Shown here: positions 4,724 to 63,880 of the stretch, piece after piece
Layout of the letters: each line of letters begins with the position of its first letter
Position numbering within the stretch: position 1 is the stretch's first letter
Source of the DNA: Agelas oroides
Lineage: Eukaryota; Porifera; Demospongiae; Agelasida; Agelasidae
NCBI GenBank assembly: GCA_949130485.1
Contig: OX422196.1
Span: 275,001-339,000, forward strand
Reading direction: 5' to 3'
DNA: 64,000 bases
Translations under genes and position numbers: made by a program
The notes under the pieces: model-generated
Seen by the model: only the letters and a program-made list of their open reading frames with translations
The model's database searches: none
Told to the model about the DNA's origin: nothing

Positions 4724-5159
4724 AAATGTATTTCCTTATGTTTACACGAGACACCAATGTAGCTACACACATACAATGAACTGCCAGATGTTGTAACACT
4801 TTAAAAAAACATCTGACATACCACAATAATGATGCTATTACAGAACACATGATCAAATACATGATGATGCTAACATTGAATCATGAGGAAACTGGGTCTG
4901 TCTCAAAGCCAGAACTTGATCGTGTCCATCTAGAGACGGCTATCCTCACTATATATACCATATATGGTTAACTTGTTTCATGGGATCATAGTGGAATAGC
5001 AGAGAGGGAAATTATACAAGCAGAGTATAACACAGGATGTGGTCAATCTGGTTGTCAAGTCTGTTTCATTTGCTGAGTAGAATAGTTTGAGTTTCCAGCA
5101 ATAAACTGGCTATCTAGCCACACCAGCCATCTACAAACTGAAGAGCTAGCTACTTTGAG

Positions 5160-7416: not shown

Positions 7417-7784
7417 AAAATATATTTCACTATATAATTAGCTATGTTGGGACACCAATGTACACACACAATACTGAATGCAATGAACAAACATCTGACA
7501 TACCACAATAATGATGCTATTACAGAACACATGGCCAGGACAGTGGTACAAATACATGATGATGCTGACGAGGAAACTGGGTCTATCTCAAGCCAGAACT
7601 TGATTGTGTCCATATGCAAGAGACGGCTGCTACTATCTACATAGTTATACAAAACAAGTTGGTAATCAAGCTGCATTCGTATTGGACCATTTTGTGCTCC
7701 TTGCTATAATCTGTAAACACCAGCAGTATAAGTGTAAATGAGTATCCTCCATATATGGGCAACTTGATTCATGGAGATCATCAT

Positions 7785-7925
7785 AGGCGTAGGAACCGAG
7801 GGGGGGGGGGCACCGAGGGCATGTGCCCCCCCCCCCAAGTTTACATAAATTGTTATATTAATTGCTCACTACTCTATGTATAGTTTGAAACTGTGCCCCC
7901 CCAATCGAAAAGTCTTTCCTACGCC
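7785..7925. mobile_element. MITE-like element, copy A
   Basis: Short element with terminal inverted repeats aggcgtaggaa and ttcctacgcc, an internal poly-G/poly-C hairpin (gaggggggggg... cccccccccc) and no coding capacity. It sits in the 5' flank of receptor copy 3 and recurs at the same place before copies 4 and 5, but not before copy 2, so it moved with the array unit. Confidence 0.75.
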
Positions 7926-8147
7926 ACTGATCATAGTGGAGTAGCTACAATATAGAAAGAGGCAATGTACAAAAATTAGCTGTACAAGTTGTAACAAGCC
8001 GAGCATAACAGGATGTGGTCATTGTCATAACGGTTGTGTCAAGTCTGTTTCATTTGCTGAGTAGAATAGTTTGAGTTTCCAGCAATAAACTGGCTATCTA
8101 GCCACACCATGCAGCCATCTGCAAACTGAAGAGCTAGCTACTTTGAG

Positions 8148-10204
8148 ATGGGACCTTTGCAGCTGGTGTGTCTCCTTTGTGTGGCAACTGTAAGTCTGAG
8201 GCTCTCCTTGATGATGTGCACATGCTTCATGTCCTGGCACTGCCACCATCACTGTAATACTGCTAGGTGTGTGTGGAGGCAGACTACCGACTGGAGGTTC
8301 TGTTCCTCAGACTAGCCAACCCGACTGGGATGTGTGGAGATCCTCAGTGTGCAGCCAACCAAGGATGTTGTGACAGTCCACTACCATGTGCAGGACAGTG
8401 TGGCTACCATCCCAGGTTCTGTGTGAGACCACTCGGTACCACGTCCAATTCCAGCTCAGACTGCCTCCAACCAATAACTTTCACAAACTTTGGTGTAAGT
8501 AGGGATCCTGACTTTCTTGCCTTTGAGATTGGCAATGATGACTTCATTGGAACACCAAACCCTGCTGTCTTCACTGGACCTAGGTGGCCAGTAAGTTGAT
8601 GGGTACGTTAACTTAGTTATTCACAGTACACACTCATACCCTCCTCACATGCCACAGGGAGGCATACAGCTGTTCATGGAGGTGTATGACCTTGACAATG
8701 GCTTGGCTGTGGAACTGGTGGACAGGTTTGCTGTGGATGTGAATGTTTCAGTTGGATCCAACATCACCATAAACAGCACTGGAGTCTTTGGTCTCATGCA
8801 ACTGCAAGTGAACTTCCGAGTGATGTGTGTGGAGGACTTCTTTGTCCTGGACTGTGCCACCTGCTCTGGGGTCAACAGGGACCCCTCTACAAAGTGCTCC
8901 ACATGTCTGACAGGCTATGGAGGAAGTGACTGCACTGTGGGTAGGTTATACCATACCTAGTCGTGTTCCCAGGCCATTACAAAGAAATGCCAAATGGCCT
9001 AGGTACGAGGCTATACCATACTTGATCAAACCTGTCAGCAAATTAGCTAACACAACAGTCTACTGCAGACCTTGACCGCTGTGGACACACCACTCCATGT
9101 GAGAATGGTGCAACATGCAACAATACTGGACCTGATCAGTATGAGTGTCTGTGTGCAGCAGGGTTTGAGGGACTCAACTGTGAGAGGGAGACAGATGAGT
9201 GTGATCCCAACCCCTGCATGAATGGAGGGACTTGCACAGTGAGTTGTTGTAGCTGTTACACTATCTTCTGTGGTATACATAGCTACAGTGTTGACCTGTT
9301 AGATACCTTCTTCCTGTTTTCCTGTATACCAGCAACCATGTAGCATATTACTGTGTGTCACATGATGATGCTGACATTGAATCAGAAGGAAACTGGGTTT
9401 ATCTCAAGCCAGAACTTAATTGCGTCATTAATGACATTATATACACCTGCTTTATAATTGCTCCTGGTACACCATCTTCTGGGACACTGTCTTCTGGTAC
9501 ATACCGGCTTGTCTCCTTATTTCCAGGACCTGCTTGCCGGCTACAATTGTAGCTGTCCTGGTGGATTCAGTGGGACCAACTGTGACCAGGAGGGTGAGTG
9601 TGGGAGGGTGAGGGGTGTGAAGGAGTCATAAAAGAAATTCTTCATGCAATACATGAAGCTGATGTTTGCCATTCATTGACCAGCTCCAGTGCTCAACTCA
9701 AAACAAAGAAAGTACATCAAAAATGATGATACAAATACATGATGCTGCTGACATCACGAGGAAACTGGGTCTATCTCAAGCCAGAACTTAATTGCGTCAT
9801 TAATGACATTATATACACTTGCTTTATAATTGCTTGTAGGTACACCATCTTCTGGGACACAGTCTTCTGGGACAGTGCTGGCACCAGTGATTGGTGGAGT
9901 GGTGGGAGGGATGCTGTTACTTGTTATCATTGTAGTCATCCTGACTGTGGCTACATGGATGTGTGTCAGACAGAGAAATGCTGTTTTGAAGGGTCAGTAA
10001 GCATGCAACCTCACCATGGTAGTATCGTATCTGTTCATCACCTCATCTCTCACAGGCCACCCCCCACCCCAGGAAGACATTGACCTCCAACCCAACCCAG
10101 TGTATGGGGTAGCTGCACCACAACAGTCCCAAGACTACTATGCATTGGACCACATCCACAAGACTAGTGGAGATATAAATGACACTTATGAATATGTGAA
10201 CTAG
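8148..10204 (+). CDS. Delta-like EGF receptor, array copy 3
   Basis: An apparently intact copy. Exons: 8148-8189, 8267-8590, 8658-8940, 9069-9238, 9527-9593, 9840-9992, 10056-10204. Exons 1-3 are phase 0 at their joins and later ones phase 1 or 0, as expected. The protein has a signal peptide, an MNNL-like domain with GDPQCAANQGCCDSPLPCAG, a DSL-like module (VEDFFVLDCATC), EGF repeats GHTTPCENGATC and DECDPNPCMNGGTC, a TPSSGTQSSGT stalk, a membrane helix, and a tail with one NPVY, YYAL and YEYVN-stop. Intron 3 carries a small foldback insertion (about 8957-9013). Intron 4 carries a duplicated piece of intron 5 plus the start of exon 6. By family it is a DSL-type ligand or receptor at the cell surface; the tyrosine tail suggests it also signals inward. 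Confidence 0.9.
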
Positions 10205-10230
10205 AAAATATATTTCACTGTATATTTATG

Positions 10231-11178
10231 TCAGTTTTTTTTCGCTCTCGCACCAACCAAATAACAACCAGATAGTTCTCAAGTTGGGATCAAACGTTTT
10301 GGCCACTATACAGTGGCCCTCATCAGTGTAATACAGGCAGTACAACTGCATGAGAATAAATACAGCAAGGGAAAAGTGGCGGGAATAAAAGGCGGGTGAA
10401 GAAATTTTGAAAAATAACAGGTGTAACAGAACAATATGAAAAACAAGGAGAGGGAGGAGACAGTACAGGGGATACAAGGCTGGGAGACTTGAAAATGTGT
10501 AGACGGTTTTGAAGGTGGGGGGAAGGGGGGGAGAGCTATGATGAAAGATGGCTGGTCTGTGTGATCAGCTGATCGTAGACTGTTGGTAACATGCCTCTCT
10601 CTCTGTTCAAGGGTTGTGGTTGTCTGCGGATGTGCCAACTCTCCAGGGTGCATCGCTGTTGGAGGAGGGAGCTGGCATCGATGACTTGGGCATCTGACCA
10701 ATCAATGTCATGGCCAGTGTCCATAGCATGTTCAGCAAGGGCAGAGGTCATGGAGTTGGCTGTTGTCAGGGCCCGTTTGTGTTCCTTGAGGCGGTGCATC
10801 AGAGTCCTTCCTGTCTGGCCTACATAAGTGGTGGGGCAATCACCACAAGGAACCCTGTACACCACCCCTGCCTTCTCCTCTGGTGGGACAGGGTCTTTTA
10901 CTCGAGTCAGAAGATTCTTGAATGTTTTGTGTGGTTTGAAACAGGTCCTGATGCCGAGGGGAGCCAGCACTCTTCTGACCGCCTCAGACGTGCGGTTCAC
11001 ATACGGGATGACCACGGTAGCCTCCGGGAGTGTGTTGGCCTGCTGTTGGTGTATTGGGTGGGGAAGGGTGAGGATCCGGTCAGGGTATTCATTGTTTGTC
11101 AGGGCCTCTCTGACATGGAAAAACTGACATGGATATACCGACATGGATATACCCAACCACACAGGACTCTACAAACTA
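10231..11178 (-). mobile_element. 5'-truncated Penelope-like retroelement with GIY-YIG endonuclease
   Basis: A minus-strand ORF (11162 down to 10536, 208 aa) encodes the end of a Penelope-like element: a linker with PYVNRTSEAVRRVLAPLGI and TCFKPHKT, then a GIY-YIG nuclease domain with the CxxC typical of these elements (VYRVPCGDCPTTYVGQTGR, then R and H of the catalytic core in LMHRLKEHKRA). No reverse transcriptase domain remains, so it is a 5'-truncated, non-autonomous copy. A 10-base target duplication (tatatttatg) flanks it at 10221-10230 and 11179-11188. It landed in the 3' flank of copy 3; the array repeat resumes exactly after it, so it inserted after that duplication. Confidence 0.88.
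10285..10335 (-). ncRNA. Degenerate hammerhead-ribozyme-like motif in the Penelope element
   Basis: On the minus strand the 3' part of the element reads CTGATGAG, then a perfect 7-bp stem-loop (GGCCACT-GTAT-AGTGGCC), then AAAACG. This is the layout of a hammerhead core, which is known in Penelope-like elements. The canonical GAAAC after stem II is here AAAAC, so the catalytic G12 appears mutated and self-cleavage is doubtful. Confidence 0.55.
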
Positions 11179-11525
11179 TATATTTATGTTGGGACACCAA
11201 TGTACACACACAATACTGAATGCAATGAACAAACATCTGACATACCACAATAATGATGCTACTACAGAACACATGGCCAGGACAGTGGTACAATACATGA
11301 TGATGCTGACGAGGAAACTGAGTCTATCTCAAGTCAGAACTTGATTGTGTCCATATGCAAGAGACGGCTGCTACTATCTACATAGTTATACAAAACAAGT
11401 TGGTAATCAAGCTGCATTCGTATTGCACCATTTTGTGCTCCTTGCTATAATCTGTAAACACCAGCAGTATAAGTGTAAATGAGTATCCTCCATATATGGG
11501 CAACTTGATTCATGGAGATCATCAT

Positions 11526-11669
11526 AGGCGTAGGAACCGAGGGGGGGGGGGGGGCACCGAGGGCATGTGCCCCCCCCCCCAAGTTTACATAAATTGTTAT
11601 ATTAATTGCTCACTACTCTATGTATAGTTTGAAACTGTGCCCCCCCAATCGAAAAGTCTTTCCTACGCC
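11526..11669. mobile_element. MITE-like element, copy B
   Basis: Same inverted repeats and internal poly-G hairpin as 7785-7925, at the equivalent position upstream of receptor copy 4. The G run is longer than in copy A. Confidence 0.75.
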
Positions 11670-11890
11670 ACTGATCATAGTGGAGTAGCTACAATATAGA
11701 AAGAGGCAATGTACAAAAATTAGCTGTACAAGTTGTAACAAGCCGAGACATAACAGGATGTGGTCAATCTGGTTGTGTCAAGTCTGTTTCATTTGCTGAG
11801 TAGAAGAGTTTGAGTTTCCAGCAATAAACTGGCTATCTAGCCACACCATGCAGCCATCTACAAACTGAAGAGCTAGCTATATACTTTGAG

Positions 11891-14117
11891 ATGGGACCTT
11901 TACAGCTGGTGTGTCTCCTTTGTGTGGCAACTGTAAGTCTGAGGCTCTCCTTCATGATGTGCACATGCTTCATGTTCTGGCACTGCTACCATCACTGTAA
12001 TACTGCTAGGTGTGTGTGGAGGCAGACTACCGACTGGAGGTTCTGTTCCTCAGACTAGCCAACCCGACTGGGATGTGTGGAGATCCTCAGTGTGCAGCCA
12101 ACCAAGGATGCTGTGACAGTCCACCACCATGTGCAGGACAGTGTGGCTACCATCCCAGGTTCTGTGTGAGACCACTCGGCACCATGTCCAATTCCAGCTC
12201 AGACTGCCTACAGAGAATAACTATCACAAACACTGCTACAAGTGTGCGTAATGAATTTCTTACCTTTGTGACTGGAAATGATGACTTCTTTGGATCACCA
12301 AACCCTGCTGTCTTTACTGGACCTAGGTGGCCAGTAAGTTGATGGTACGTTAACTTAGTTATTCACAGTACACACTCACACTCTCCTCACATGCCACAGG
12401 GAGGCATACAGCTGTTCATGGAGGTGTATGACATTGAACAAACTGGCTTTGATGGTGAACTGGTGGACAGGTTTGCTGTAGATGTGAATGTTTCAGTTGG
12501 ATCCAACATCACCACAGACAGCACTGGAGTCTTTGGTCTCATGCAACTGCAAGTGAACTTCCGAGTGATGTGTGTGGAGGACTTCTTTGTCCTGGACTGT
12601 GCCACCTGCTCTGGGGTCAACAGGGACCCCTCTACAAACTGCTCCACATGTCTGACAGGCTATGGAGGAAGTGACTGCACTGTGGGTAGGTTATACCATA
12701 CCTAGTCGTGTTCCCAGGCCATTACAAAGAAATGCCAAATGGCCTAGGTACGAGGCTATACCATACTTGATCAAACCTGTCAGCAAATTAGCTAACACAA
12801 CAGTCTACTGCAGACCTTGACCGCTGTGGACACACCACTCCATGTGAGAATGGTGCAACATGCAACAATACTGGACCTGATCAGTATGAGTGTCTGTGTG
12901 CAGCAGGGTTTGAGGGACTCAACTGTGAGAGGGAGACAGATGAGTGTGACCCCAGCCCCTGCATGAATGGAGGGACTTGCACAGTGAGTTGTTGTAGCTG
13001 TTACACTATCTTCTGTGGTATACATAGCTACAGTGTTGACCTGTTAGATACCTTCTTCCTGTTTTCCTGTATACCAGCAACCATGTAGCATATTACTGTG
13101 TGTCACATGATGATGCTGACATTGAATCAGAAGGAAACTGGGTTTATCTCAAGCCAGAACTTAATTGCGTCATTAATGACATTATATACACCTGCTTTAT
13201 AATTGCTCCTGGTACACCATCTTCTGGGACCCTGTCTTCTGGTACATACCTTGTCTCCTTATTTCCAGGACCTGCTTGCCGGCTACAATTGTAGCTGTCC
13301 TGGTGGATTCAGTGGGACCAACTGTGACCAGGAGGGTGAGTGTGGGAGGGTGAGGGGTGTGAAGGAGTAATAAAAGAAATTCTTCATGCAATACATGAAG
13401 CTGATGTTTGCCATTCATTGACCAGCTCCAGTGCTCAACTCAAAACAAAGAAAGTACATCAAAAATGATGATACAAATACATGATGATGCTGACATTGAA
13501 TCAGAAGGAAACTGGGTCTATCTCAAGCCAGAACTTAATTGCATCATTAATGACATTATATACACCTGCTTTATAATTGCTTGTAGGTACTCCTGGTACA
13601 CCATCTTCTGGGACACTGTCTTCTGGTACACCATCTTCTGGGACACTGCTGGCACCAGTGATTGGTGGAGTGGTGGGAGGGCTGCTGTTACTTGTTATCA
13701 TTGTAGTCATCCTGACTGTGGCTACATGGATGTGTGTCAGACAGAGAAATGCTGTTTTGAATGCTGGTCAGTAAGTATGCGACCTCACCATGGTAGTATC
13801 GTATCTGTTCATCACCTCATCTCTCACAGGCCACCCCCCATCCCAGGAAGACATTGACCTCCAACCCAACCCAGTGTATGGGGTAGCTGGCAGTGGTATG
13901 TACTAAACGGATGGCAACTCATGATCAGGTGAAGCTGTGAAGGTGATGGATTATCTCATCTTCTGCGGGCCACCCCTCACCCCAGGGAGACATTGACATC
14001 AAGCCCAACCCAGTATATGGGGTAGCTGCACCACAACAGTCCCAAGACTACTATGCATTGGACCACATCCACAAGACCAGTGGAGATATAACTGACACTT
14101 ATGAATATGTGAACTAG
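11891..14117 (+). CDS. Delta-like EGF receptor, array copy 4 (terminal exon acceptor lost)
   Basis: Exons: 11891-11932, 12010-12333, 12400-12685, 12814-12983, 13269-13335, 13587-13766, 13830-13895, and a would-be terminal exon 13969-14117. The ectodomain is intact: signal peptide, MNNL-like, six-cysteine DSL-like, two EGF. Its exon 3 has the DIEQTGFDGEL version shared with copy 2, while intron 4 has the insertion shared with copy 3, so the gene is a mosaic. The membrane exon encodes an extra TPSSGT unit and ends LNAG. The NPVY exon is duplicated (two copies), but the acceptor before the last exon reads ctgcgg where copy 2 has ctgcag. Without it the message would read through the donor to GMY-stop (TAA at 13904-13906), losing YYAL and YEYVN. 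Confidence 0.82.
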
Positions 14118-14478
14118 AAAATATATTTCACTATATATTTATGTTGGGACACCAATGTATACACACAATACTGAATGCAATGAACAAAACATCTGCATGA
14201 CATACCACAATAATGATGCTATTATAGAACACATGGCCAGGACAGTGGTACAATACATGATGATGCTGACGAGGAAACTAGGTCTATCTCAAGCCAGAAC
14301 TTGATTGTGTCCATATGCAAGAGACGGCTGCTACTATCTACATAGTTATACAAAACAAGTTAGTAATCAAGCTGCATTCAAATTGGACCATTTTGTGCTC
14401 CTTGCTATAAATAAGTGTAAATGAGTATCCTCACTATAGCTACCATATATGGGCAACTTGATTCATGGAGATCATCAT

Positions 14479-14640
14479 AGGCGTAGGAACCAGGGGGGGG
14501 AGGGGGGGGAGGGGGGGGGGGGGGGGGGGCACCGAGGGCATGTGCCCCCCCAAGTTTACATAAATTGTTATATAAATTGCTCACTACTCCATGTATAGTT
14601 TGAAACTGTGCCCTCCCAATTGAAAAGTCTTTCCTACGCC
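14479..14640. mobile_element. MITE-like element, copy C
   Basis: Third copy of the same element, upstream of receptor copy 5. Its poly-G tract is much expanded (about 14495-14529, interrupted by single A bases), while the matching poly-C tract has shortened. Confidence 0.75.
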
Positions 14641-14863
14641 ACTGATCATAGTGGAGTAGCTACAATATAGAAAGAGGCAATGTACAAAAATTAGCTGTAC
14701 AAGTTGTAACAAGCCGAGACATAACAGGATGTGGTCATTGTCATAATGGCTGTGTCAAGTCTGTGTCATTTGCTGAGTAGAAGAGTTTGAGTTTCTAGCA
14801 ATAAACTGGCTATCTAGCCACACCATGCAGCCATCTGCAAACTGAAGAGCTAGCTACTTTGAG

Positions 14864-16734
14864 ATGGGACCTTTGCAGCTGGTGTGTCTCCTTTGTGTGG
14901 CAACTGTAAGTCTGAGTCTCTCCTTCATGTTGTGCACATGCTTCATGCTCTGGCACTGCCACCATCACTGTAATACTGCTAGGTGTGTGTGGAGGCAGAC
15001 TACCGACTGGAGGTTCTGTTCCTCAGACTAGCCAACCCGACTGGGATGTGTGGAGATCCTCAGTGTGTAGCCAACCAAGGATGCTGTGACGGTCCACCAC
15101 CATGTGCAGGACAGTGTGGCTACCATCCCAGGTTCTGTGTGAGACCACTCAGCACCACATCCAATTCCAGCTCTCACTGCCTCCAGACAATAACTTTAAC
15201 AAACACTGCTACAAGTGAGCCTAATGAACTTCTTACCTTTGTGACTGGCAATAATGACTTCTTTGGAACACCAAACCCTGCTGTCTTCACTGGACCTAGG
15301 TGGCCAGTAAGTTGATGGTACATTAACTTAGTTATTCACAGTACACACTCATACTCTCCTCACATGCCACAGGGAGGCATACAGTTGTTCATGGAGGTGT
15401 ATGACCTTGACAATGGCTTTGATGTGGAACTGGTGGACAGGTTTGTTGTGGATGTAAATGTTTCAGTTGGATCCAACATCACCATAAACAGCACTGGAGT
15501 CTTTGGTCTCATGCAACTGCAAGTAAACTTCCGAGTGATGTGTGTGGAGGACTTCTTTGTCCTGGACTGTGCCACCTGCTCTGGGGTCAACAGGGATCCC
15601 TCTACAAACTGTTCCACATGTCTGACAGGCTACGGAGGAAGTGACTGCACTGTGGGTACGTTACATCTGCCAACATAGCTGGCCAACTAACATGATAGTA
15701 ACTATACTATACTGCAGACCTTGACCGCTGTGGACACACCACTCCGTGTGAGAATGGTGCAACATGCAACAATACTGGACCTGATCAGTATGAGTGTCTA
15801 TGTGCAGCAGGGTTTGAGGGAGTCAACTGTGAGAGAGAGACAGATGAGTGTGACCCCAGCCCCTGCATGAATGGAGGCACTTGCACAGTGAGTTGTTGTG
15901 GCTGTGACATGATCTTCTGTGGTATACATAGCTACAGTGTTGACCTGTTAGCTACCTTCTTCCTGTTTTCCTGTATATCAGCAACCATCAGTGTAGCACT
16001 GTGTGCCACTCTATGTACCAGCAACATACACTGTCTCCTCATTTCCAGGACCTTCTGGCAGACTACAACTGCAGCTGTCCTGGTGGCTTCAATGGGACCA
16101 ACTGTCACCAGGAGCCGGGTGAGTGTGTCTCTGGGTGAGGGGGTGTGAAGGAGTCAAAAAAGAAATTCTTCATGCGATACATGAAGCTGATGTTTGCCAT
16201 TCATTGACCAGCTCCAGTGCTCAACTCAAAACAAAGAAAGTACACCAAAAACGATGATACAAATACATGATGCTGCTGACATCACGAGGAAACTGGGTCT
16301 ATCTCAAGCCAGAACTTAATTGCGTCATTAAGGACATTATACACCATTCTGCTTTATAATTGCTTGTAGGTACACCATCTTCTGGGACGCAGTCTTCTGG
16401 GACACTGCTAGCGCCAGTGATTGGTGGAGTGGTGGGAGGGATGCTGTTACTTGTTATCATTGTAGTCATCCTGACTGTGGCTACATGGATGTGTGTCAGA
16501 CAGAGAAATGCTGTTTTGAAGGGTCAGTAAGCATGCAACCTCACCATGGTAGTATATTATCTGTTCATCACCTCATGTCTCACAGGCCACCCCCCACCCC
16601 AGGAAGACATTGACCTCCAGCCCAACCCAGTATATGGGGTAGCTGCACCACAAGACTCCCAAGACTACTATGCATTGGACCACATCCACAAGACTAGTGG
16701 AGATATAAATGACACTTATGAATATGTGAACTAG
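14864..16734 (+). CDS. Delta-like EGF receptor, array copy 5
   Basis: An apparently intact copy with the simplest tail. Exons: 14864-14905, 14983-15306, 15373-15655, 15718-15887, 16049-16118, 16370-16522, 16586-16734. The product has a signal peptide, MNNL-like domain, DSL-like module, two EGF repeats, TPSSGTQSSGT stalk, membrane helix, and a single tail exon with NPVYGV, YYAL and YEYVN-stop. It has neither the intron 4 insertion of copies 3 and 4 nor the foldback in intron 3. EGF2 reads NCH rather than NCDQ near its end (one Asp to His change). This copy is the best reference for the family. Its 3' flank runs directly into the end of the opposite-strand PTB gene. Confidence 0.9.
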
Positions 16735-24379: not shown

Positions 24380-27054
24380 TCACGTCTTTGCATCTTGTTT
24401 TGAAGTGTTCTCCTTTGCTGTTTCCATATCTTGTCCCTCCTCCATCTTTTCTTCTTTGGTGTCCATCTTTTCTTCTTTGGGCAGTTGACTTTCAGAGTTG
24501 GCCATTTCCCCCTTCTCCTCAGCAACGTTTGACCATAGTGACGGTGACTAAAAACAGAACAATATTTTATGAAGCCTCTAAAATGGTTCACATAGCAATA
24601 CTGTCGATATTCCTCAAAGTTTCAAATACAAATTACAGTTGTTTGCATAATGTTGTTCATCAGCTACTTGGTACCGAGAAGTACCTTCCTACTAGCCTCG
24701 TTCTCAGGCTCCTCCTCAGCTTCTTATCACACAAGCAATGAGGCAGGAGTCTGGGAATAACATAGCACCCCCTCATACCAGAAGAGAGGAGGACATGATG
24801 ACAAGTGACAATTAGTGTCCTCCCTCCTCTCCATACTGTGACTGGAGATAAGGTTCATTTCTCTTACGGAAAATTGGAAGTGCTGCATCTCGTCAGGGGC
24901 TTCAGAGGCATCGCTGGGGCCAATGAGATCTCCCTCTGACAACAAGCCTCCTTCTACTGCATTCCCAAATTTCTCCTTCCTCAGTTCTTGTAACCGTTCA
25001 GAAATAAACTGTCGCCTGCACAAGGATTCAATGACTAGAATAACTTCCTTTAACAGTACCATAACAATGTATACCACTCACTTGTTAGGAATATCAAATT
25101 CGTCTGGCAACTTGGTCAACTGTTGCATCACATGGGCCTCTTCTAGCTCTAAAGGATCCTGTGCTGCTTCTGCACACACTGCAGAGAGACAATAGTACAT
25201 CAGACTACTACTCCTTGAGCGTCCTCCTGTGCTACAATGTTCAACACTAGACTGTCACGGTGATTTTATTCAACCACACTCTGGTAATGAATGGAGGTTC
25301 AAGGTGGCTGTCCTTCCATTCACTTCAATACTTAAGCAACCCCTGAATAGCAGACACCCTGCTACTCTGAACACTAAGATCTTAGACTGTCATGGTGATT
25401 GGCAATTTTTTATTCAACCACACTCTGGTAATCTTTCTGGCAACAACCATCAACCACACGTGTGTCTGATGCAATACTTATCCAGAGTGTGCTATATAAA
25501 ATTTGCAACTACCATGATGGTCTAAGATCTAGTGTTCATTGAATACCCAGAGACAAGCTCCCTACTAGAACATGTAGCTAGCCTGGACTGATGAGGGGGA
25601 GGACCAATGCCAAGCACTACCTGACATGAAGCCAGGTATAGGGCCCAGGGCGGCACGGCAAGTGTGAAATGACAAGCTCTGCATGAAAGGCTACAAACCA
25701 CCCGGCCTATACCTTGATATGCTGCAATCACCATTATCAGTGTACATGTACATGCACCCATGTGTGTGTAAAATGTGACCTGGCCAGAGGCTTATAATAA
25801 GTACAAAAGGAGATAACTATCACAATAAAATAGCAAACCAACACAAGGTACTACACTATAGTAATGGTGTGTAGTAGGTGTACCTTTTAGCTCTGTTTCA
25901 ATAGCTTCTTGGGCTCTTTCTCGCAGTTTTCTATCCTAGAAAGTAAAAAAGTTCAGGAAGTTATGTGCATCCTATATAGTGGGGAGTTTTAATATCCACC
26001 TGCATATAGATGTGGTTCGATTTCAATCATCAAACAGCTAGTATGCATGCAATGTGTGTACATGCTGTTTCTGTACCTTCTCAATAGCTTCTTGTGAGAC
26101 TTTAGGTGCACTTGGGAAGGTCACAAGTACAGCGCTCATGTTGTCTCTGCTATTCTGTAGGGGCATGTAAACACAGCTAAGGTGATTCATATGGTTGGCA
26201 CTAATTGGAATAAACTGTCTGCCGCATACCTTATTGAGACAGGTATCAATCAAATCACTACAGATTTGTGAGAGGTCATCTGTCAACTCCAAGTGATGCC
26301 GGATATATGCAATCACATCGTCATTGGTCATGACATCAAAGACGCCATCACAAGCCAAGAAGAGAAACTCATCAGTTGACGGTTCTCGTTTCTGGATTGT
26401 GATTTCTGGCTCTGGTGAAACTAGCTGCTCAGTGGCTGGAAGCTCATTTGCACGCTTGTAATCAAAGTCCCCCAGTGCTCTGGATACAGCCAGAGAACCG
26501 TTAACTCGCTGCATCATAACTGTACCCCCTGCCTTCTCGATTCGGTTTCTCTCCTTCTCATTAAAAGGCTTGTGATCTTCTGTTGCAAACTCCACCTTTC
26601 CGTTGCGACAGAGAAGCCCCCTGGAGTCCCCACAGTTGCCCCAAATGATTTCCTTGGGAGAAACCATTACTACAATCGCAGTAGTACCGCTGCGGTCCTC
26701 GCCATTAGCCCACTGAGGGAGCTTCTTTATCCTCTCATCCAGGTTTAGAAAGCCTTTTTGAATGCCTTGCTTCACAGCATCAGCTGAAACTTCTTGATCC
26801 TTTTTTATATCTATGCTCTCCACGATGCAGTCTAGGAGGTGTTGGGAACAATACTGGGATACCTTTGGGCCAGCATGGCCATCAAAAACACCAAAAAAGC
26901 CCCAGTCTTTGAGGGAGAAGCTGGTATTGCAGACATGAGCGTCCTCCATCTCCATTCTCCACCCCTGCATTGCAGCCACTCCAAATCGAATACCACACCC
27001 CTCCCCCTTAGCAGTCACTTTCTCTGTCTTTGGTTTCTCTAGAAATGCTCCCAT
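24380..27054 (-). CDS. PPM1A: PPM1A/B-type metal-dependent Ser/Thr phosphatase
   Basis: Six exons, all in phase: 26230-27054, 26077-26154, 25884-25935, 25082-25178, 24868-25015 and 24380-24547 (TGA at 24380-24382). The catalytic domain is complete with PP2C motifs in order: GVAAMQGWRMEMEDAH, FFGVFDGHAG, SGTTA, NCGDSRG, LACDGVFDVM and NSRDNMSAVLV. The metal-binding aspartates (DGH, CDG, RDN) are all present, so it should be active. The C-terminal extension (PKVSQEAIEK, LRERAQEAIETEL, HVMQQLTKLPDEFDIP) follows the PPM1A/PPM1B helical tail rather than PPM1G, PPM1D or PPM1K. It then ends in an acidic Lys/Glu-rich tail (EEKMDTKEEKMEEG). MGAFLEKPK at the start suggests N-terminal myristoylation, as in PPM1A. 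Exact paralogue A versus B cannot be settled. Confidence 0.92.
25246..25528. repeat. Direct and inverted repeats in a PPM1 intron
   Basis: agactgtca[c/t]ggtgat followed by attcaaccacactctggtaat occurs at about 25246 and 25383. An inverted copy (ccagagtgtg... catgatggtctaagat) is at 25481-25528, so the segment can fold into a long hairpin. It looks like a degraded foldback transposon. Confidence 0.65.
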
Positions 27055-27492
27055 GATTCATGGACACTTTTAGTCAACAAAAGTTGGTTGATTCCAAGCT
27101 AAGGAGCAACAATAATTGTGAAGCTAAGTATAACTGTGCCCCTCGTACCAAATTATGCTTGATCAGCGCACCCGAACAGCTGAATCAACAAAGTTGCACC
27201 ACACTGTGTTATAGTTTCGCTTATTACACTTTCTGCTGAGCAGTACAACGCTGGCATACCAGTTTAATCGAAATACCGGCTTTTTTGCTGAATGAAGCAG
27301 ATCATGAAGTGGGAGACGCAGCCATTTTCAGATCAAATAATACACTCCCTGGATACCGTCCGTAATTTACCGTAAAATATATCTTACAGCGCATGCGTAA
27401 TAAACGTCATCATGACATCATATCTAAAAATAACTTGCGAATACCAATTTTACTTGCACACGTGCGCCCTGCTGCAGCATGCTATCAGAGGC

Positions 27493-28047: not shown

Positions 28048-34501
<6,454 letters not shown>

Positions 34502-35029: not shown

Positions 35030-49378
<14,349 letters not shown>

Positions 49379-49599: not shown

Positions 49600-50754
49600 A
49601 TGAGCCGTGGACGGGAGATCGGGTGGGTGCTGTTGCTCTATTGGCTGCAGTGGAGCGGTATCGTGCAGGCGCAGCCTGGATCGGGAGACCTGGAGGACGG
49701 AATCTCACCAGGTTAGCTGCGCAGCGTGTGCGCTTGCAACTGTGTGTAGGTATATGCTGCAGTAGACATAATGTGTTACTAGTGTGCAGCAAAATTCAGA
49801 ACATGCATATTTTTTTGATGGTGTTCATGCATGCTCCGGCCTGGTACTGCTTATAGAGAGACTGCAGGCCACCTCACCATCCTCACGTGTTTCTGTAATG
49901 CCAACAACTGAGAGAGAAGGCATGCATCGTATCAGGCTTCTACCATTGAACTCCATGCAAAATATCTGAACCATGCATGCAGAGTAATCAGTCAGAAATC
50001 TTAAGAATCCAGACTCTCAACCAGTTGCATAACTGTTAAACTGTATACTTCCTCTTTGCAAATATACACATAGTCTCCTGTGCATGTGTTGCCATTCTGC
50101 ACTGGCATGCAAAGTAAGTCTTAGACTCTACGCAGACATTCTATTATAGTTGTATTCTGCAGTGTACAGTTTGGTAACTTAATGTGTCCTTCCTATTACA
50201 CATAGTCTCCTGTGCAAGGAGCCGTTATGTGTTGCGTGGCACTCCATTCAACTGGGAGCTGTCAAATGGCAATGCAGCACAAGGAACCTGTGAATACACT
50301 ATGACCAATAACACTGATGTCCCTTCAGAGTCGTGGACACACACAGGTAAGGTTAAGGCAGTATAGTTGTTATCTGCTATTGTACTGAGCCTGCTACTTG
50401 CTGCAAAATAGAGGAAATGAGGTAGTTCATTTCTTTTCAACCCTTCTCTTCTGTTTCCTGCGTGGGTTGAAATCAGCTCTGTAATTTGATTTGCAAGGCC
50501 TCTCTTTCTGAAGCCAATGGGCCAATATACTACAGTTGCTATGGAGACTGAGCTTTCTAAAATCATTTGACCAGCTCAGATTTGATCAGGTGTGTCCTGC
50601 ATAATGAAATAGAAACCATATATTTCATAACATGTACATGTATTTACAGCAAGAATAGCTGCTAAAAGGAAATATTTATACAACAAGGATTACCTCACTC
50701 AATAATTAACTCAACACCTGGATCAATCATGCAACATTGTTGTTATGACTTTGC

Positions 50755-50800
<46 letters not shown>

Positions 50801-53800
50801 GGCTCTCAGCACATCTTCTATTTGACTGGAGATTTTAAGTACAACTGTCCGGGCTTTAGCAGTGAAAACTTGTCGGTGGTGGAAGCACAGTACAGCATAG
50901 CTCTGTGTCGAGGATGTGAAGGACAGTACACACTGAACGTCGGAGAGGTGCTAAGCTGGTCCCTGGCCGAGAGGGACAGTGGGGACATATGCAACATTAG
51001 CATCAAGAACACCAATACTAACCAGCTGCTGCAAAGTGAGGAAAATAGCCAGGAAGGTGCTCAAGTTTTTATTTTTCTGCTAACTAGCATCTGGCTCCCC
51101 GCATTTGGGTGAACCTTAGCACTTTTTAGCAAGGTAGCACTAAGGTAAAACAGCACTAAGGTAAAACAGCACTAACCTCTAGGTTCTGGAAGCGTCTAGT
51201 TTAGACAGGGGTCAAGTTAAAGTTTTTCCTGCTAGACTCCAAATTAATTGTTGCTTCTCCATGGCTTTTGTTTACTACACTCAGTGGCTTGTGTGTGACA
51301 GGTGGTCAGACAATCCATTTACATCTTGTCTCTTGTTACGTACAGCTACAACCTCCTTCTTCCAATTCACCGAGCCTGGCTCCTATGAGGTGTACTGTAC
51401 AGAAGACACTAGCCTCAATGCCTCCGTCCAGGTTGTCACGATGCAGGCTGAGGGGCCATACAAGCCTCTACTGTACATCCATGCTGCACTCATGGGGATC
51501 ACGTTTGGCATACTACTTCCCCTGGGGGCATTTCTTGCCCACCACCAGAAGTTCACCATCCACAAGATTACCCAACCAACTGGCATATTGTTTGCCCTGG
51601 TGGGATTTATAATGGTGCTGGTATACGTCGGTCTGTCTCATGGACGCCACTTTCGGTTTCTGATCCATGGGGTGGTCGGACTGGCACTGCTGTTACTCAC
51701 GTTCCTCCTGATGCCTGCTCTGCTCTTGCGCAAGCCATGGCACAAGTGGCACAAGCGATGTGGTCATATTATTGCCTTTTTTGGCATGGCGAATGTACTT
51801 TTGGTAAGCTCACTTCCTAATATGGCACTACCTTGCTGATAATATAATTATTGTGTAGTAAAATATTTTTGACACTTTATCATGGACACCCATCTCACCA
51901 CCATGTACTGATGCACTTTCAGCAGAAGTAACCTGCAGCCTTTGAAATTCTACTCCCACTTTCTTTCCCCTTCCCAGGGACTGGGTGTTCTTCAAGTGTC
52001 CCGACCTGTAGCCCTCACACTCTGTGCCCTGTATGGCATCTGGCTGGTGATTGCCATTTTTGTGTACATCCTCCTCTCCCCAAAGAAAGGAAGCTACAAT
52101 CTGGAGAAGACAGAAGAGGTGAGGTATGGTGAGGGTAGCTTCCAGACAAAGATGATAGAACTAGGAAGCAAGAAGGATTCATCTCTCAGCAACCGATCAC
52201 AGAACACTGGGAAAGGGCTCCAACCGCTTTCTAAAAATGTCATCAGTGATGAAAAGATGGTGCAGCTCCGAAAGAAGAGCATTGACCCTGCTGAAGCACA
52301 GAGACAGCGTGCTCAGCTGGACAGCGAGCTTGGACTTCAGCATCATGACTCCTTCAAGTCAGACATCGATGATAAAGTACACAATGCTAAACTAAACCGG
52401 CTTGAGAAACTCCAGGAGTGTGAGGAGCTGGAGTCACCGGACGAACCTGACAACTCTCGGACAGCGCTCCTGGTGCCTGAGCACCTTCAGCAGAGCTCCC
52501 CGGAGCCATACATCCCTTCCTCAAGCCCACCCCAGGATTCAACCTTGAAACCAAAGTTCAGGATAACTACCTCATCCGACTCCAGTGAAGACGAGCAAAA
52601 GGACACCATAGACAACCAGAGAACCTCATCTCCTGTTGCAGGCATTTCATCACTTTCCAGAGCTCATACATTCACCTGTCCCATGACCTCAGCAATGGAT
52701 GAGGACTCAGACAGTAATTCTCTTTCAGGATCACTGCGACTTACCAGACACTCCAAGAGGGCAAGGAAATCAATGGATGGATTGTTTAGCAAGTCTGCGA
52801 GTGCCGAGCCTTTGTCAGTCCCAGCTGACAATGCGACCAGTCCGGTACAGGTACAACCAACAAGGATGCGTGAGAGACACCGGAAGCCAGCGCTTGTCCC
52901 TCCCATCATCACCACCACACCTGCCGTACCCTCTCCCCTAGTGCAGACACCACCATACACACAACCAGACGGCGGCCTCCTGGGGCACAAAATCTCTTCC
53001 ATTCGCCGGGGGGTCTCCCCTACCCCCTCCACAGAGGATAGCGTTTTCGATGACTCGTCTCCAAAACCACGCAAGAAGAAGGTCAGCGTGGCCCAGATTG
53101 AGGCAACCATTTTCCCCCCGACCCCCCTCACCCTTGAGCCACCCGTACGTCTGGGCATCTCTCGCTCGGCCAGTTTCAGCACCAATCAGAACACTTTTGC
53201 TGACAATGCATTTCGCTCAGTTATGAAGATGTCTCACGATGCAATTGTGTGTGCCAACAGTGTCGGGGAGATTGTGTACTGGAGCTCTGGTGCTGTGAAA
53301 ATGTTTGGGTACACTCCTGGAGAGGCCATCGGTAGCTCCCTAGAGGTAAGCAAGTGATCGTAAAGCTTAAATGGACCTTTTTAAGCTCATTCCCTCCCCA
53401 CCACATTCCTCCTCTTCTCTCAACTCCTCTCCCTCCCTCTCATTCCCTCCTTCTCTTCTCCCTCCCTCCCTCCCTCCCTCCCTCCCTCCCTCCCTCCCTC
53501 CCTCCCTCCCTCCCTCCCTCCCTCCCTCCCTCCCTCCCTCCCTCCCTCCCTCCCTCCCTCCCTCCCTCCTCTCTCTCCCTCCTCCTTTCCTCTCCCCCTC
53601 CTTCAGATGATCATTCCCCAGAACTATAAAGAAAAGCATCGTAACGGTATTAGCAACCGAACCTCCGACACTCAAAAGTACATTCGGTACGTACAAAGAA
53701 TTACTCGACAAAGCCAGTGATTGTGAGTCAGGCTTCACCTACTGCACTTTTCATCTCACAGGAAACACTCCTATACTCCTGAAGAGCAGAAGCATGCACG

Positions 53801-56800
53801 TCTTTATGCAGTAAGCTTTTCAACCACAATCTCACACACATATTGCTTCATAATTTTTAGCTAAATTAATACTTTACCTTTCCCTTCTCCCTTCCTTTCT
53901 TTCCTCTCCCCCCCTCTCTCTCTCCCCTCCCCTCTCCTTCCCTTCTCCATTCCCCTCTCCTCTCCCTCTCCCCCCCCCTCTCTCTCCCCTCCCCTCTCCT
54001 TCCCTTCGCCCTTCCTCTCTCCTCTCCCTCCCCCTTTCCTTCCCCCCTTCCTCCTCTCTCCTCTCCCTTTTCCTCTCCACCCCGTAGGTACATGGTGTTG
54101 CCAAAAATGGCCATGAGTTTCCAGCGGAGGTAAATGTCACGAGTTTTGTCATCGATGATGAAATCTTCTACACTGGCATCATCTCAGAAATTGCTCGCCT
54201 ACGACCTACCAGAGCAAACTCAGTGTCCAGCGCCAGTGAAAACCATGAGGCCACCCTCAAGCAGAGAGTAAGACCCTCTTGATTATCTGTGATCATGTAG
54301 TCTTGGTCCCAAGCTTCTAGTGTAGAGAGAGATTTCTTGGAAAAAATTCCACGTTGGCAACTGCAATATTTTATCCACTTGTGTGTACCCCAGGCGATGG
54401 CCGTCGGAGCACAGATGAAGATTGCGCATAATCTTCGCAGTGCAGAGCACATCTCAAGGAAAGAGCTACAGCGTGTGCTAGCCGGGAGCTTTGATTCCGC
54501 CGGTTTCAAGGTGGAGCCCTACCAGATGGAACAAATGATTGAAGGCATCATGAAGGTGACGTAATGGTGAAATCATATAATGACAATGTCTATGAATATC
54601 ATTAACTAGCATGCTTGAACACAGCCTTGGTGTGTTTTGTCTATGAATATCATTAACTGGCATGCTTGGTGTGTACTTTTTGTCTTGTATGCAGGCAGGG
54701 GACCCGGATGGGGATGGTGTGATCTCCTACGTCAGCCTCATCCAGCTGCTCTCCAAACACCGTCTCTACATCAGTGAGAGTGGCCTTATTGCCCGCTATG
54801 GCAAGACCAAGGGAACAGAGGGAGACAGGCTGAACCATCGACAGGGCCTGCTGCACCACGTCCTTCAGTTTTGTTTCACCTGTGCTCCTTCCCTGGTATG
54901 GTTCACGATCTACGTCATCCTCAACCTCCTCCTCTTGCTCATCGGCATACTGGTAACGGACAGACAGGGGTGGAAACAGTGGGCATACGGCTCCGGGCCG
55001 GTGCTGAGCATGAACTGTGTCCTGGTCCTCCTGCCAACGCTCTCCTCTCTCCTCCAAAACATGAAGAACAGCCCACTCATGAACACAGTAATAATCTATA
55101 ATAGTAGCTCTTAACATTACCCACGTAACATGATTTGGGTAACATTCTATGGCTTTCTTTTTTAAACAAATTTGTGAACTTTAAAGTAAATGGCGAAAAT
55201 AGGCACTGTTTCACTATCTGTCAGCACTCCTTGCTTTGTAAATTATAGACAAAATTAATTCACCATTCCTTATAAGGTAGTTCGCTACATCACAAATGAT
55301 TGTCTGCCAAAAAGCTATTCAGCATTGTTTCAGTGCCTATCATGCACTCCATCACTGCACTCAACAGCACTCCTACTGCATAATCTGGTTATGTTGAACT
55401 TGGCAGCTGCTCTATCACTACATCTGTGTACCACATGTCTCCTGCAGGTCTTCCCACTGCCACATGCCCTGGCCTTCCACATCATTGTAGCCATGGGTAT
55501 CTTCGTGTGGACCGGAGTCCACCTCCTCACCCACTTTGCCTCCTTTGCCCTCGACGACCGAAACGCCTCCACCTCAACCTCCGCCCACTTCAACGCCAGC
55601 CTGTACACCAACCTCTTCCCCACGATCACTGGAGCCATTATTCTGGTTGCCATAGTAACCATGGCCATCTCGAGCATCACGCCCCTCCGCAAGCAATTCC
55701 GGTTCATCCCATTCTACGTGATCCACTGGGCCGGAGCTGCCCTGGTGTACCTCCTCCTTATCCTCCATGGCATCCATTACTACAATCCTGCTTTCTGGAA
55801 GTGGTTTCTCCCAGCTGCCATCATATTCGCACTGGAGAGGATCTACCGCCATGTGGTGGTGCACAGACATAAGGTCTTGCTCAAGTGTGCAGGGGCGTAT
55901 GATGACGTGTCACGTGTCGCGGTCGTGGAGATGGAGAAACCCAAGGGGTTCCGTTACGAGCCCGGACAGCATGTGATGCTCAACCTTCCGTGGATTGGTA
56001 AGATATGTTTGCATGCATACACAAGTTTTGGTTGCTAAGCAACAGACTAACAAACTTATGTACACTAAGCTTCAAATTGGCTATACACGTATAAGCTATG
56101 CTATGTTACCCCCCCCCCCCCTCCCCCCCTCCCCACCTGGGCCCCCTTTTCTTTTCCCCAGGTCACTTCAACTGGCATCCATGCAACATTGCTTCAGGGC
56201 CCAAGGAAGATGTAAGGCATAGCTAAACCTCCAAGCTACCTGTGGGATACTTCTGACCTCCTGCCAGCTAGCTCTTTCAGCAATCTGACCTCCTGCCAGC
56301 TAGCTCTTTCAGCATTGTGCCAATTCACAACCTAGCTATTTCAGCATTGTGCCAATCTGACCACCTAGCTGCCAGCCATTGCTGCACTTGCTATTATTGA
56401 GGGAGCTATTTCAGCATTGTGCCAATCTGACCACCTAGCTGCCAGCCATTGCTGCACTTGCTATTATTGAGGGAGCTAATTTGCCAATTCACAACTTAGC
56501 TAGCAATTTGCCAATTCACAACCTAGCTCTTTCAGCATTGTGCCAATCTGACCACCTAGCTGCCAGCCATTGCTACACTTGCTATTATTGAGGGAGCTAA
56601 TTTGCCAATTCACAACTTAGCCAGCAATTTGCCAATTCACAACTTAATTAACTCTTATGTGCCAATCGCCCAGTTATACACTATAACTTGCTGCTATTCT
56701 GTTCCACAGAAATTGACCGTTTACGTTCCCAAGTTGAGTGACGCGTGGTGTACTCAGGCCTTCACTCACATGAAGCTCCACCCCATCAACATGCCCCGCC

Positions 56801-59123
56801 CCACCCACCACCAGGCCAACGGGAAGCTACCAGTTGAGGAAACACCACGTCACGTTTCTGTACAGTTCACAGGACCGTAAGTCGGTGCAGCTAGGCCCAG
56901 AATCTGTGCATACACACAGCAGATTGCATGTGGGTCAAATAATCAGATTGCTAAAATTTCACTGCACCCACCACCCCACACCCACAACACATGTGCACAC
57001 ATCACACCCTACATCCCATCACAACTTGCACCACCCCCCCAGGTATGGTCCTGGCTGCAACATCCTGTTCGACTACAAGATCTCAGTACTGGTGTGCGGA
57101 GGCAATGGACCCGACGGCTCCAAATCCATCATCAAAAAGTTCCTAGAGTACAGGAAGGGGGCAGCCTGCGCCTGTGGGTGAGTTCCTCCGTACAAGTTCT
57201 CTTCCAGCCTTGTTCTCCGAAACATGTTGGACTAGAATCCTTATACTCTTAGTGTTTGTGGTGGACTTTCTTGTTAGTGGCAGTGACAGCTTAATGACGG
57301 CCACAAGTGTCTACCCAATTGGCTTCTTTATCCTTCTAACCATATGCCAGTGTAACGTGATAGCGTGTTGGTACTAGGTACCTTTATGCTCCTTATCTAC
57401 CCAATCTCTTGTTCGTTCTCCTGTTGCCAGCTGCCACCCAACTCTGACCAAACTCTACTTCATCTGGGTCATCCCAAGTGGAAATGACTTTGAGGTGAGC
57501 CAACCTTCAGCTCGTTTCCTGGGGCTTTGTGGTTTGTGAACCTGTGTTCCCATTTTTGGGACAGGTGCATGCTGTCCCATTTCTGCATGCGCTCAACTCA
57601 AGCACGACTACCTATATCAAAGTTACCAGCTTGCTCCCTCTCCCTCCCTCCCTCCCTCCCTCCCTCACAGTGGTTCACAGACTATCTCTCTGACCTGTGT
57701 GAAGACGACCACTTGCAACGCTACCTAGACATCCGTATCTTCCTCACCAACATTGACAGCCCCCCGGACGAGCTCGCCTCTGCTCTCCTCCAACTAGGAC
57801 TCAAGACTGCTGGGGAGTCATGTAATGTCCGCCGACCCTCTCAACCCCAGCTTAATAACCTCTACCACATGACGTCCTATGGTGTGCCCGACTTTGACTC
57901 TCTCATTGACTGTAAGTGTGTGCTACACATACGTCACATGATGTCACATGATGTCACATGACCTGTCTGCACTGTACCGGGACTGAGTCCTGGGGTTGTA
58001 GGTCAATCTCTATACACTTGGAATATGCCGTGGATGGTGCTATATAGGAGAAAGCATACATGCTTAGGTGGTCGTGGCTTCTAGCTTTGCCTTGTTGACA
58101 TAGGTGGCGTGATACTGAGAATAAGTGGGTGTGGGATGGTGAGTGTAGGATGTGATGTGTACAAAGATGTGTTGTGGGATGCAGTGAAATTATAGCTGAC
58201 CCACACGTGATCTGCCGTCCGTCAATTTGGTATGATGGTGGTACGTTGGTACCAGGTATATATCAGTAAAATAATCTCACAGTGAGGATAGAATGTACAA
58301 GGTGCTTGTTGAGGGTCTGTAGAGGAAGTCGGGTCAAGGAGGTCAAGATTTGTCACCTAGGTCATTCTTTGGTTGAATGGCTCATGCACACACAGTGTTC
58401 CATGTTCCTTCCTCGTCCTCAGGATATTGCACGAGATGTTGCACCATTGCACAGATGTTGCATGAGATAAGGGCTCACCACAGTGATTCACCAAAATTGG
58501 GATTTGCTTGCAAGTCATTTCAAAAGACGGTGAACCCCCATCTCCAAGTTTGTGTGGTGATATCGCACAATGTGCTTGGGAAATAATGATAGGTTCTGTA
58601 CTAGCAGAAATGGTGGGACAGGGAGAGGTGGGTAAGTGACATATGGCGGCACATTGTGGTCGGCTTTAGAAAGGCTTTGGTCAACACTGGGTGGGCCATT
58701 TCTCTTCTATGCACAAAATGGCTTATTCAATGCTCCTCTGTGGAGGCTTGTTTCTGGCTCGTTTTCAGTCTTGATGGGTTGACAGTCTAGGTGGGTATTT
58801 GCTGGTTGAGAGCCCTGACTTTTTCTGCTAATGAGTGTGTGCAGTTAGAGTCACAGATTGGCACAGAATGGCCCACTAGAGTACCTTTGGATCGAGTTTC
58901 AAGGGCTACATCTGAGCAGTCAACAAAAGATGGCATGTCGAGAACAATGTTTAGAGGGTCTTCTTGGATGTGAAAGGTCACAAAACTACCTGTTGTGTTT
59001 TCAGGTAGAACGTTTACCTAACGTTTGAGGTATATATGTTTACCCAGCACTTTTAGGGATACAGGCACTTTGAACAGATGTTGTTTTTGAGTCCTTCAAA
59101 ATGTGTTTTAAGCAAGTTGCTCG

Positions 59124-59166
<43 letters not shown>

Positions 59167-59337
59167 GTTGCTGTCCAGCACTCCAACCTGTGGTGTGACA
59201 TTCAGGAGGAGGTGGAGTTTGGGGTGTACACCATCGGAGACCTGCTTCACACCAGCAGGAGGGAACTGATAGCTGCTTGCAAGACTCACTCCAAACCAGC
59301 CCAGCTAGCCTTCCGACACCACCACATCATCACATAG
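49600..59337 (+). CDS. Cytochrome b561 - PAS - EF-hand - NADPH oxidase fusion protein
   Basis: Seventeen exons, 49600-49711, 50206-50346, 50802-51056, 51346-51803, 51978-53345, 53607-53686, 53762-53810, 54088-54267, 54394-54555, 54695-55087, 55448-55997, 56162-56211, 56710-56876, 57043-57177, 57431-57494, 57671-57911 and 59165-59337, join in phase into exactly 1,526 codons including the stop. Domains: signal peptide 1-25 (WVLLLYWLQWSGIVQA); Cys-containing ectodomain to about 205; b561 core 207-355 with five helices and candidate heme histidines H215, H242, H277, H305; Ser/Pro-rich linker; PAS 733-860 (VYWSSGAVKMFGYTPGEAIG); EF-hand loop 938-949 (DPDGDGVISYVS, last ligand Ser); NOX5-like oxidase with H1077/H1091 and H1159/H1173, FAD-site HPCNIAS, altered NADPH motif VLVCGGNGPDGS, and YGVPDF. 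Inferred role: calcium- and PAS-regulated transmembrane electron transfer, possibly ROS production or metal reduction. The ATG at 49600 is chosen because it starts the signal peptide. Confidence 0.9.
53456..53568. repeat. (CCCT)n microsatellite before a NOX-fusion exon
   Basis: About 28 CCCT units in intron 5, followed by more CT-rich sequence up to the acceptor (ctccttcag) of exon 53607-53686. A second CT-rich block (53877-54080) precedes exon 54088-54267. Confidence 0.95.
56240..56650. repeat. Tandem repeats of about 110 bp in NOX-fusion intron 12
   Basis: Three to four imperfect copies built from gctctttcagcattgtgcca, tctgaccacctagctgccag and ttgctattattgagggagct segments fill the intron between exons 56162-56211 and 56710-56876. 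Confidence 0.85.
57912..59164. other. Long last intron of the NOX fusion gene
   Basis: 1.25 kb, the longest intron of this gene. It ends in a (CA)n run from which the acceptor (acacacag) is formed. On the minus strand 58981-58787 stays open (64 codons) without a recognised domain. I see no convincing exon. Confidence 0.55.
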
Positions 59338-62572: not shown

Positions 62573-63786
<1,214 letters not shown>

Positions 63787-63880
63787 AACAAAATTAACCC
63801 CTTTCCGCCCTAATTACATCACATGACAAACGACTAATTACACATGACTTTCATCTGATTGACACGCAACATTTGAAAAA
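63787..63880. promoter_or_regulatory. Divergent promoter of GPATCH11 and the right-edge gene
   Basis: Ninety-four bases separate the two divergent start codons, so one compact bidirectional promoter must serve both. No TATA box is seen. Confidence 0.5.

Follow-up and report, generated by a model that had tools for sequence, protein, structure and literature searches.

A demosponge NOX gene of the DspNOX kind in Agelas oroides with a conserved dehydrogenase-like tail that lacks the usual FAD and NADPH motifs

The 64,000-nucleotide stretch of the Agelas oroides genome analyzed here (contig OX422196.1, positions 275,001 to 339,000; hereafter the window) carries at 49600-59337 on the forward strand a gene for an apparent membrane protein that combines a b561-like module, a PAS domain and a NOX5-like core. 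Judged from its sequence, the protein is a member of the already described DspNOX kind of sponge NOX proteins, and the fusion is not new. What makes it stand out is its tail, which is highly conserved and yet has lost the residues that mark the use of reduced nicotinamide adenine dinucleotide phosphate (NADPH). Because the signature residues for both NADPH and flavin adenine dinucleotide (FAD) are replaced while the tail remains strongly constrained, we hold with moderate confidence that the NOX half no longer draws on NADPH by the ordinary route.

Gene structure and relatives

A scripted rebuild of the gene yielded 17 exons encoding 1,525 residues and a stop codon, with GT...AG borders at all 16 introns and no in-frame stops. 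It agrees with an earlier sequence-only reading of this DNA, which had proposed the same exon number, an unbroken frame and the same protein length. Splice options were sampled up to six bases around each boundary; two complete paths were left, of which the one nearest the boundaries drawn by eye was adopted. The exons and the PAS domain (window positions; TM, transmembrane helix) are as follows.

49600..49711, + strand: exon 1; opens with the start codon; residues 1-37 are probably a signal peptide (by eye); N-terminus resembling that of the relative P0001
50206..50346, + strand: exon 2; ectodomain
50802..51056, + strand: exon 3; ectodomain, with C100, C120 and C123 retained in the three of three relatives that cover them
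51346..51803, + strand: exon 4; end of the ectodomain, then the b561-like/DUF2427 module from TM1 through most of TM4, with H215, H242, H277 and H305
51978..53345, + strand: exon 5; remainder of TM4 plus the whole of TM5 in the b561-like module, the 368-residue linker and the start of PAS
53193..54195, + strand: PAS domain (residues 728-857; PF13426, PF00989), spanning exons 5-8 with introns between; H789
53607..53686, + strand: exon 6; PAS
53762..53810, + strand: exon 7; PAS
54088..54267, + strand: exon 8; end of PAS
54394..54555, + strand: exon 9; first half of the EF-hand-like region
54695..55087, + strand: exon 10; EF-hand-like loop (residues 938-949), whose position 12 is Ser, followed by the first NOX helices
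55448..55997, + strand: exon 11; NOX haem helices with H1077/H1091 and H1159/H1173, and start of the FAD lobe
56162..56211, + strand: exon 12; region of the FAD motif, here WHPCNIASGP instead of (W/Y)HPFT
56710..56876, + strand: exon 13; FAD lobe (PF08022, 44.5 bits)
57043..57177, + strand: exon 14; GPYG retained, CGGNGPDG (57095-57118) at the canonical G-x-G-x-x-P site, first two Cys of CxCGC
57431..57494, + strand: exon 15; third Cys of CxCGC, and Pro at the position of the Arg that follows Trp in four canonical NOX chains
57671..57911, + strand: exon 16; core of the NADPH lobe, part of the most conserved stretch compared
59165..59337, + strand: exon 17; last part of the NADPH lobe, with TIG where CGP would be expected (placed by eye), stop codon

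The main protein search scored the 7,987 candidates with the most shared words, and the three protein searches gave 15, 6 and 9 proteins. Among the candidates scored, five relatives have E = 0, with identities of 43-55% and query coverage of 78-98%, which places the reality of the frame beyond chance. The nearest of them (55% identity over 98% of the query) is an uninterrupted open reading frame (ORF) on a 4,965-base contig. This contig encodes P0001, of 1,528 amino acids, and a 5,048-base contig encodes P0002, of 1,388 amino acids; since the window gene has 16 introns, both contigs probably represent spliced transcripts.

The possibility that two genes were joined in error is highly improbable. 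The b561-PAS join sits within exon 5, a single open exon, so that linking the two parts takes no splice, and P0001 and P0002 each hold b561, PAS and NOX in one ORF. The open exon and these relatives thus bear out the single gene and the domain order that the sequence-only reading had described. Taken from the sequence evidence, the locus is almost certainly one real gene for a b561-like and NOX-like fusion membrane protein that has its place in DspNOX.

Place in the DspNOX family

DspNOX proteins are known from four demosponges, Amphimedon queenslandica, Xestospongia bergquistia, Tethya wilhelma and Ephydatia muelleri (Hewitt & Degnan 2022, PMC9524095). Besides a NOX core with its HHHH, they have five extra helices (three in E. 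muelleri) that are labelled Cytochrom_B561 or DUF2427, an extended disordered stretch and either PAS or PAS_9; an EF-hand region, termed calcium-binding, is present in three of the four species and absent from E. muelleri (PMC9524095). The window protein shares this order of extra TM helices (b561/DUF2427), linker, PAS, EF-hand-like region and NOX5-like core with four His. It has the extra N-terminal helices, a PAS domain above the Pfam cut-off (PF13426 at 34.5 bits, PF00989 at 29.8 bits) and the NOX core with its HHHH, FAD and NAD domains. The belief of the sequence-only reading that no described protein has this domain order therefore has to be given up, DspNOX being already in print (PMC9524095). 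Red-algal NOXD, which has been placed as sister to DspNOX, has four extra helices, but these sit between the NADPH sub-regions, whereas those of DspNOX are N-terminal (PMC9524095). A literature text search, with most subscription journals outside its coverage, found no second paper on DspNOX among those listed, judging by titles, and text searches aimed at the fusion turned up no experiment on these proteins.

The relatives include incomplete gene models. Em0019g755a and Em0019g766a, among the closest matches, carry what we take to be Ephydatia muelleri names, and each of these models is without pieces that relatives have (TM4, a PAS stretch, NOX helices). P0003 and P0005 are, judged by their names, two gene models of one scaffold, and P0004 shares 86-87% identity with both. 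A PAS stretch present in P0004 is absent from P0003 and P0005, and TM4, present in P0005, is absent from P0003. Given these gaps, the count of three helices in E. muelleri (PMC9524095) may stem from faulty gene models.

Pfam recovered PAS and NAD_binding_6, as the sequence-only reading had anticipated, and FAD_binding_8 as well, but not Cytochrom_B561, Ferric_reduct, EF-hand or, on the whole protein, DUF2427. In an NCBIfam scan of P0001 and P0004, a PAS model alone scored above its cut-off.

FAD and NADPH motifs of the tail

Six DspNOX sequences were scored for FAD and NADPH patterns derived from 101 NOX sequences (PMC5676040), with four canonical NOX fragments as controls. The FAD motif HPF[TS] and the NADPH motif G-x-G-x-x-P each match all four controls and none of the six DspNOX sequences. 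In the latter the FAD motif is replaced by HPCN, EPCY, QPCP or HRCY, and the stretch G(A/G)GIG(V/I)TP by CGGNGPDG, CGGNSPHT, CGGEGPPM, CAGDGPHA or CGGNGPHA. The Arg that follows Trp in all four canonical chains is Pro in every DspNOX row (6/6). Canonical NOX proteins typically also carry CGP near the C-terminal end. CGP or CGS was found in the final 200 residues of none of the six, by a pattern run without a control; the presumed position, placed by eye, reads TIG, TVG or TLG. GPYG is retained in five of the six.

This loss is accompanied by strong conservation. The core of the NADPH lobe (residues 1370-1475) has 84-86% identity to all five relatives, the highest value of the nine stretches compared; the FAD lobe has 45-50%. 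CxCGC, C1340 and C1398 in the NADPH lobe are invariant (6/6). The core identity and the invariant cysteines would fit a lobe with a changed job rather than a dying domain.

For human NOX2, the replacement Pro415His within the NADPH motif is reported to prevent both the binding of NADPH and the formation of superoxide, with FAD incorporation remaining normal (PMC9674757), and the NADPH1 and NADPH4 motifs have been termed universally conserved in such dehydrogenases (PMC11031084). Passages of PMC11088703 and PMC7794343 consulted for NADPH contacts at the level of single residues gave nothing of use. The available text of PMC9524095 makes no mention of a loss such as that seen in the present set. 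The sequence-only reading had assumed that the NOX part moves NADPH electrons; a NOX core is indeed there, but its use of NADPH is doubtful with both motifs absent throughout.

Several observations weigh against a loss of the usual NADPH route. NAD_binding_6 (PF08030) and FAD_binding_8 (PF08022) are above the Pfam cut-off in the window protein, P0001, P0003 and P0005; together with GPYG in five of six sequences, these calls would allow a shifted NAD(P)H site. Outside the DspNOX-like set, the protein searches gave a single NOX, P0016, alongside PAS proteins (P0006-P0015). This NOX, which belongs to another group, fails all the strict patterns though HPF and GIGIT are present, so that pattern failure is no proof of lost NADPH use. 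Nor are the six rows independent, P0003 and P0005 coming from one scaffold and P0004 being 86-87% identical to them; the rows probably represent about four lineages. Finally, the AlphaFold2 model of P0004 (PAS-EF-NOX) has a mean predicted local distance difference test (pLDDT) score of 36.5 and gives no usable structure of the tail.

NOX haem core and EF-hand-like region

NOX5 (6sz5) is the top Protein Data Bank (PDB) chain for the NOX half; the alignment with 5o0t, the membrane domain of csNOX5, spans residues 1002-1200 (E 8e-12). The haem helices and the FAD and NADPH lobes of the human (6sz5) and Cylindrospermum (5o0x/8cak) NOX5 chains align with the window protein; unlike it, these chains have intact HPFT, GIGxTP and Arg motifs. 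NOX5 is not known to have a b561 part or PAS. A hydropathy scan found five above-threshold regions between 992 and 1175, and by homology the NOX half would have six helices. Ferric_reduct (PF01794), which served as a filter in the DspNOX study (PMC9524095), is absent from the Pfam list of the whole protein at E up to 1. The sequence-only reading had singled out H1077/H1091 for their 14-residue spacing; the pair was recovered, along with a second, H1159/H1173, also 14 apart. H1077 and H1091 are conserved in the five of five rows with residues there, H1159 and H1173 in all six.

The EF-hand Pfam models reach 12.9 and 14.2 bits on the whole protein, below their cut-off. In the window protein, positions 1, 3 and 5 of the loop (residues 938-949) are Asp, so faint calcium binding is possible. 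In an EF-hand loop the last ligand, at position 12, is normally acidic. Here this position is Ser, Asn or Gly and never acidic (6/6), and the P0001 loop has lost nearly all its ligands. A calcium role is thus weakly indicated at most, and the loops of the present set do not support the calcium-binding label used in PMC9524095.

These data bear on the published view (PMC9524095), in which DspNOX is a conventional NADPH oxidase under calcium control to which further domains have been added. Electrons would then run from NADPH through FAD and two haems to outside oxygen, and the b561 part beside this route would reduce iron or ascorbate radical. The NOX domain order with its four haem His, the two dehydrogenase domains above the Pfam cut-off, NOX5 as best PDB match and the three Asp of the window loop all speak for it. 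It conflicts, however, with the absence of the FAD and NADPH motifs from all six sequences, with the uniform Arg-to-Pro change and with the non-acidic position 12, and we regard it as the less probable account, at perhaps a minor but real share of the likelihood.

PAS domain

PAS has 76-81% identity among relatives. Its top PDB match is FixL (E 1e-9), from which it differs by a loop insertion. The proximal haem His of SmFixL is His194 (PMC10765370). H789 of the window protein aligns with the FixL proximal His, and the position is His in all four rows with residues there. PAS might therefore gate the oxidase as a haem-based oxygen sensor of the FixL type, as both the match and the retained His would suggest. 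The same position was, however, His in 11 of 18 PAS domains from ten prokaryote-type proteins, selected through their similarity and used as a control (another residue in six, a gap in one), so H789 fails to single out a haem PAS. Moreover, the FixL distal Arg position is Tyr in the window PAS (by eye), and the loop insertion likewise sets this PAS apart from FixL. A haem-binding sensor is accordingly an unlikely assignment.

Ectodomain, b561-like module and linker

The ectodomain has 24-35% identity to four relatives and no Pfam family above cut-off; no DOMON family is above cut-off in the N-terminal piece either. By eye, the ectodomain might be cupredoxin-like. Hydropathy segments at 210-235, 243-270, 271-300, 308-330 and 331-358 match the five b561-side helices counted by the sequence-only reading. 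The module has 38-66% identity among relatives. DUF2427 just passes its cut-off of 23.8 bits on exon 4 alone (24.0 bits) and is below it on the whole protein (17 bits). Cytochrom_B561 (PF03188) reaches 18.2 bits on the N-terminal piece against a cut-off of 23, and is absent from the Pfam list of the whole protein at E up to 1; in this the protein differs from CYBDOM and cytochrome b561 proteins (HYP1, AtCytb561 4o6y). By these scores the module appears to fit DUF2427 better than Cytochrom_B561. The 368-residue linker that joins it to PAS is less conserved (34-45% identity).

The sequence-only reading had proposed four candidate haem histidines, and the window protein has such candidates in H215, H242, H277 and H305, but they are not equally constant among relatives: the outer pair H215/H277 is conserved in 11 of 11 rows, two of which carry Tyr or Asn in place of H242 on the inner side. 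Six of the 11 rows are short ORF pieces around exon 4 or 5 (P0018-P0023), in which the NOX part was not seen; ORFs of this type mostly run on into an intron (by eye). Left out of the count were P0017 (the ORF of the window itself), P0024 (whose frame quits b561 midway), P0025 (which begins after TM4) and P0004 (which has no such region).

The AlphaFold2 model of exon 4 has four helices (pLDDT 73), and every Foldseek match to it had E above 0.2. VIA-align placed designed four-helix bundles on top, which we do not use as support. Profile A4 covered whole proteins, so that its PDB matches are NOX and FixL, not b561. The sole match of profile A5 to PDB sequences, a serotonin receptor at E 0.048, was taken as chance.

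With two candidate di-haem bundles sharing a single chain, a scenario of modules in series is conceivable: cytosolic ascorbate would feed the b561-like haems, and these would pass electrons on to the NOX haems or to an outside acceptor used by both modules, the NOX half having no need of NADPH. The invariant outer pair fits such a route, and the plant CYBDOM protein HYP1, which moves ascorbate electrons outward, needs the equivalent pair (PMC10784544). On the other hand, H242 is replaced in two of the 11 rows, and the HYP1 residue N311, suggested by docking for ascorbate (PMC10784544), maps by eye to His, Arg or Ile. We consider the scenario improbable.

Other features of the window

Upstream of the DspNOX gene, a 21-base unit is repeated 57 times (98% matches) at 46671-47868. 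Further features are listed below.

3081-16145, + strand: five similar tandem ORFs that resemble an MNNL/EGF gene (Delta/Jagged-like, by eye); two ORFs in this region gave nothing in Pfam at 1e-3
26041-27057, - strand: single-exon ORF of a protein phosphatase 2C, 339 amino acids (PF00481, E 3e-76)
28051-32375, - strand: alpha-actinin-like exon ORFs (by eye); the part scanned, 28253-28522, has EF-hand matches below cut-off
35651-37081, - strand: HEAT repeats, HEATR5A-like (PF25468, E 3e-38)
63361-63813, - strand: G-patch ORF (PF01585, E 1e-8)

Proposed function and implications

We propose that DspNOX is a membrane redox protein whose ectodomain faces outward and is followed by a b561-like (DUF2427) module of five helices, a long linker in the cytosol, PAS, an EF-hand-like region that has degenerated and a di-haem core like that of NOX5, completed by the dehydrogenase-like tail. 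The two haem bundles would carry electrons outward, and PAS, the linker and the tail would sense or dock a cytosolic signal, the tail being mainly regulatory or serving another donor. Haem binding, topology, electron flow and regulation are all inferred here. The usual NADPH route may have been replaced by a regulatory tail, by another donor or by a feed from the b561 half. A more radical version, which we think rather unlikely, is that DspNOX is not an NADPH oxidase at all: the lobe would be another redox or metal-binding regulator, with CxCGC and the replaced NADPH motifs as its marks, and the NOX haems would be fed through the b561-like half or a partner under the control of PAS.

The significance of DspNOX lies in the tail. 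If the NADPH site is truly lost under constraint, a whole animal NOX clade would have been counted as generators of reactive oxygen species for no more than its haem histidines and the names of its domains, and the idea of a NOX core that works from a different donor would become directly testable.

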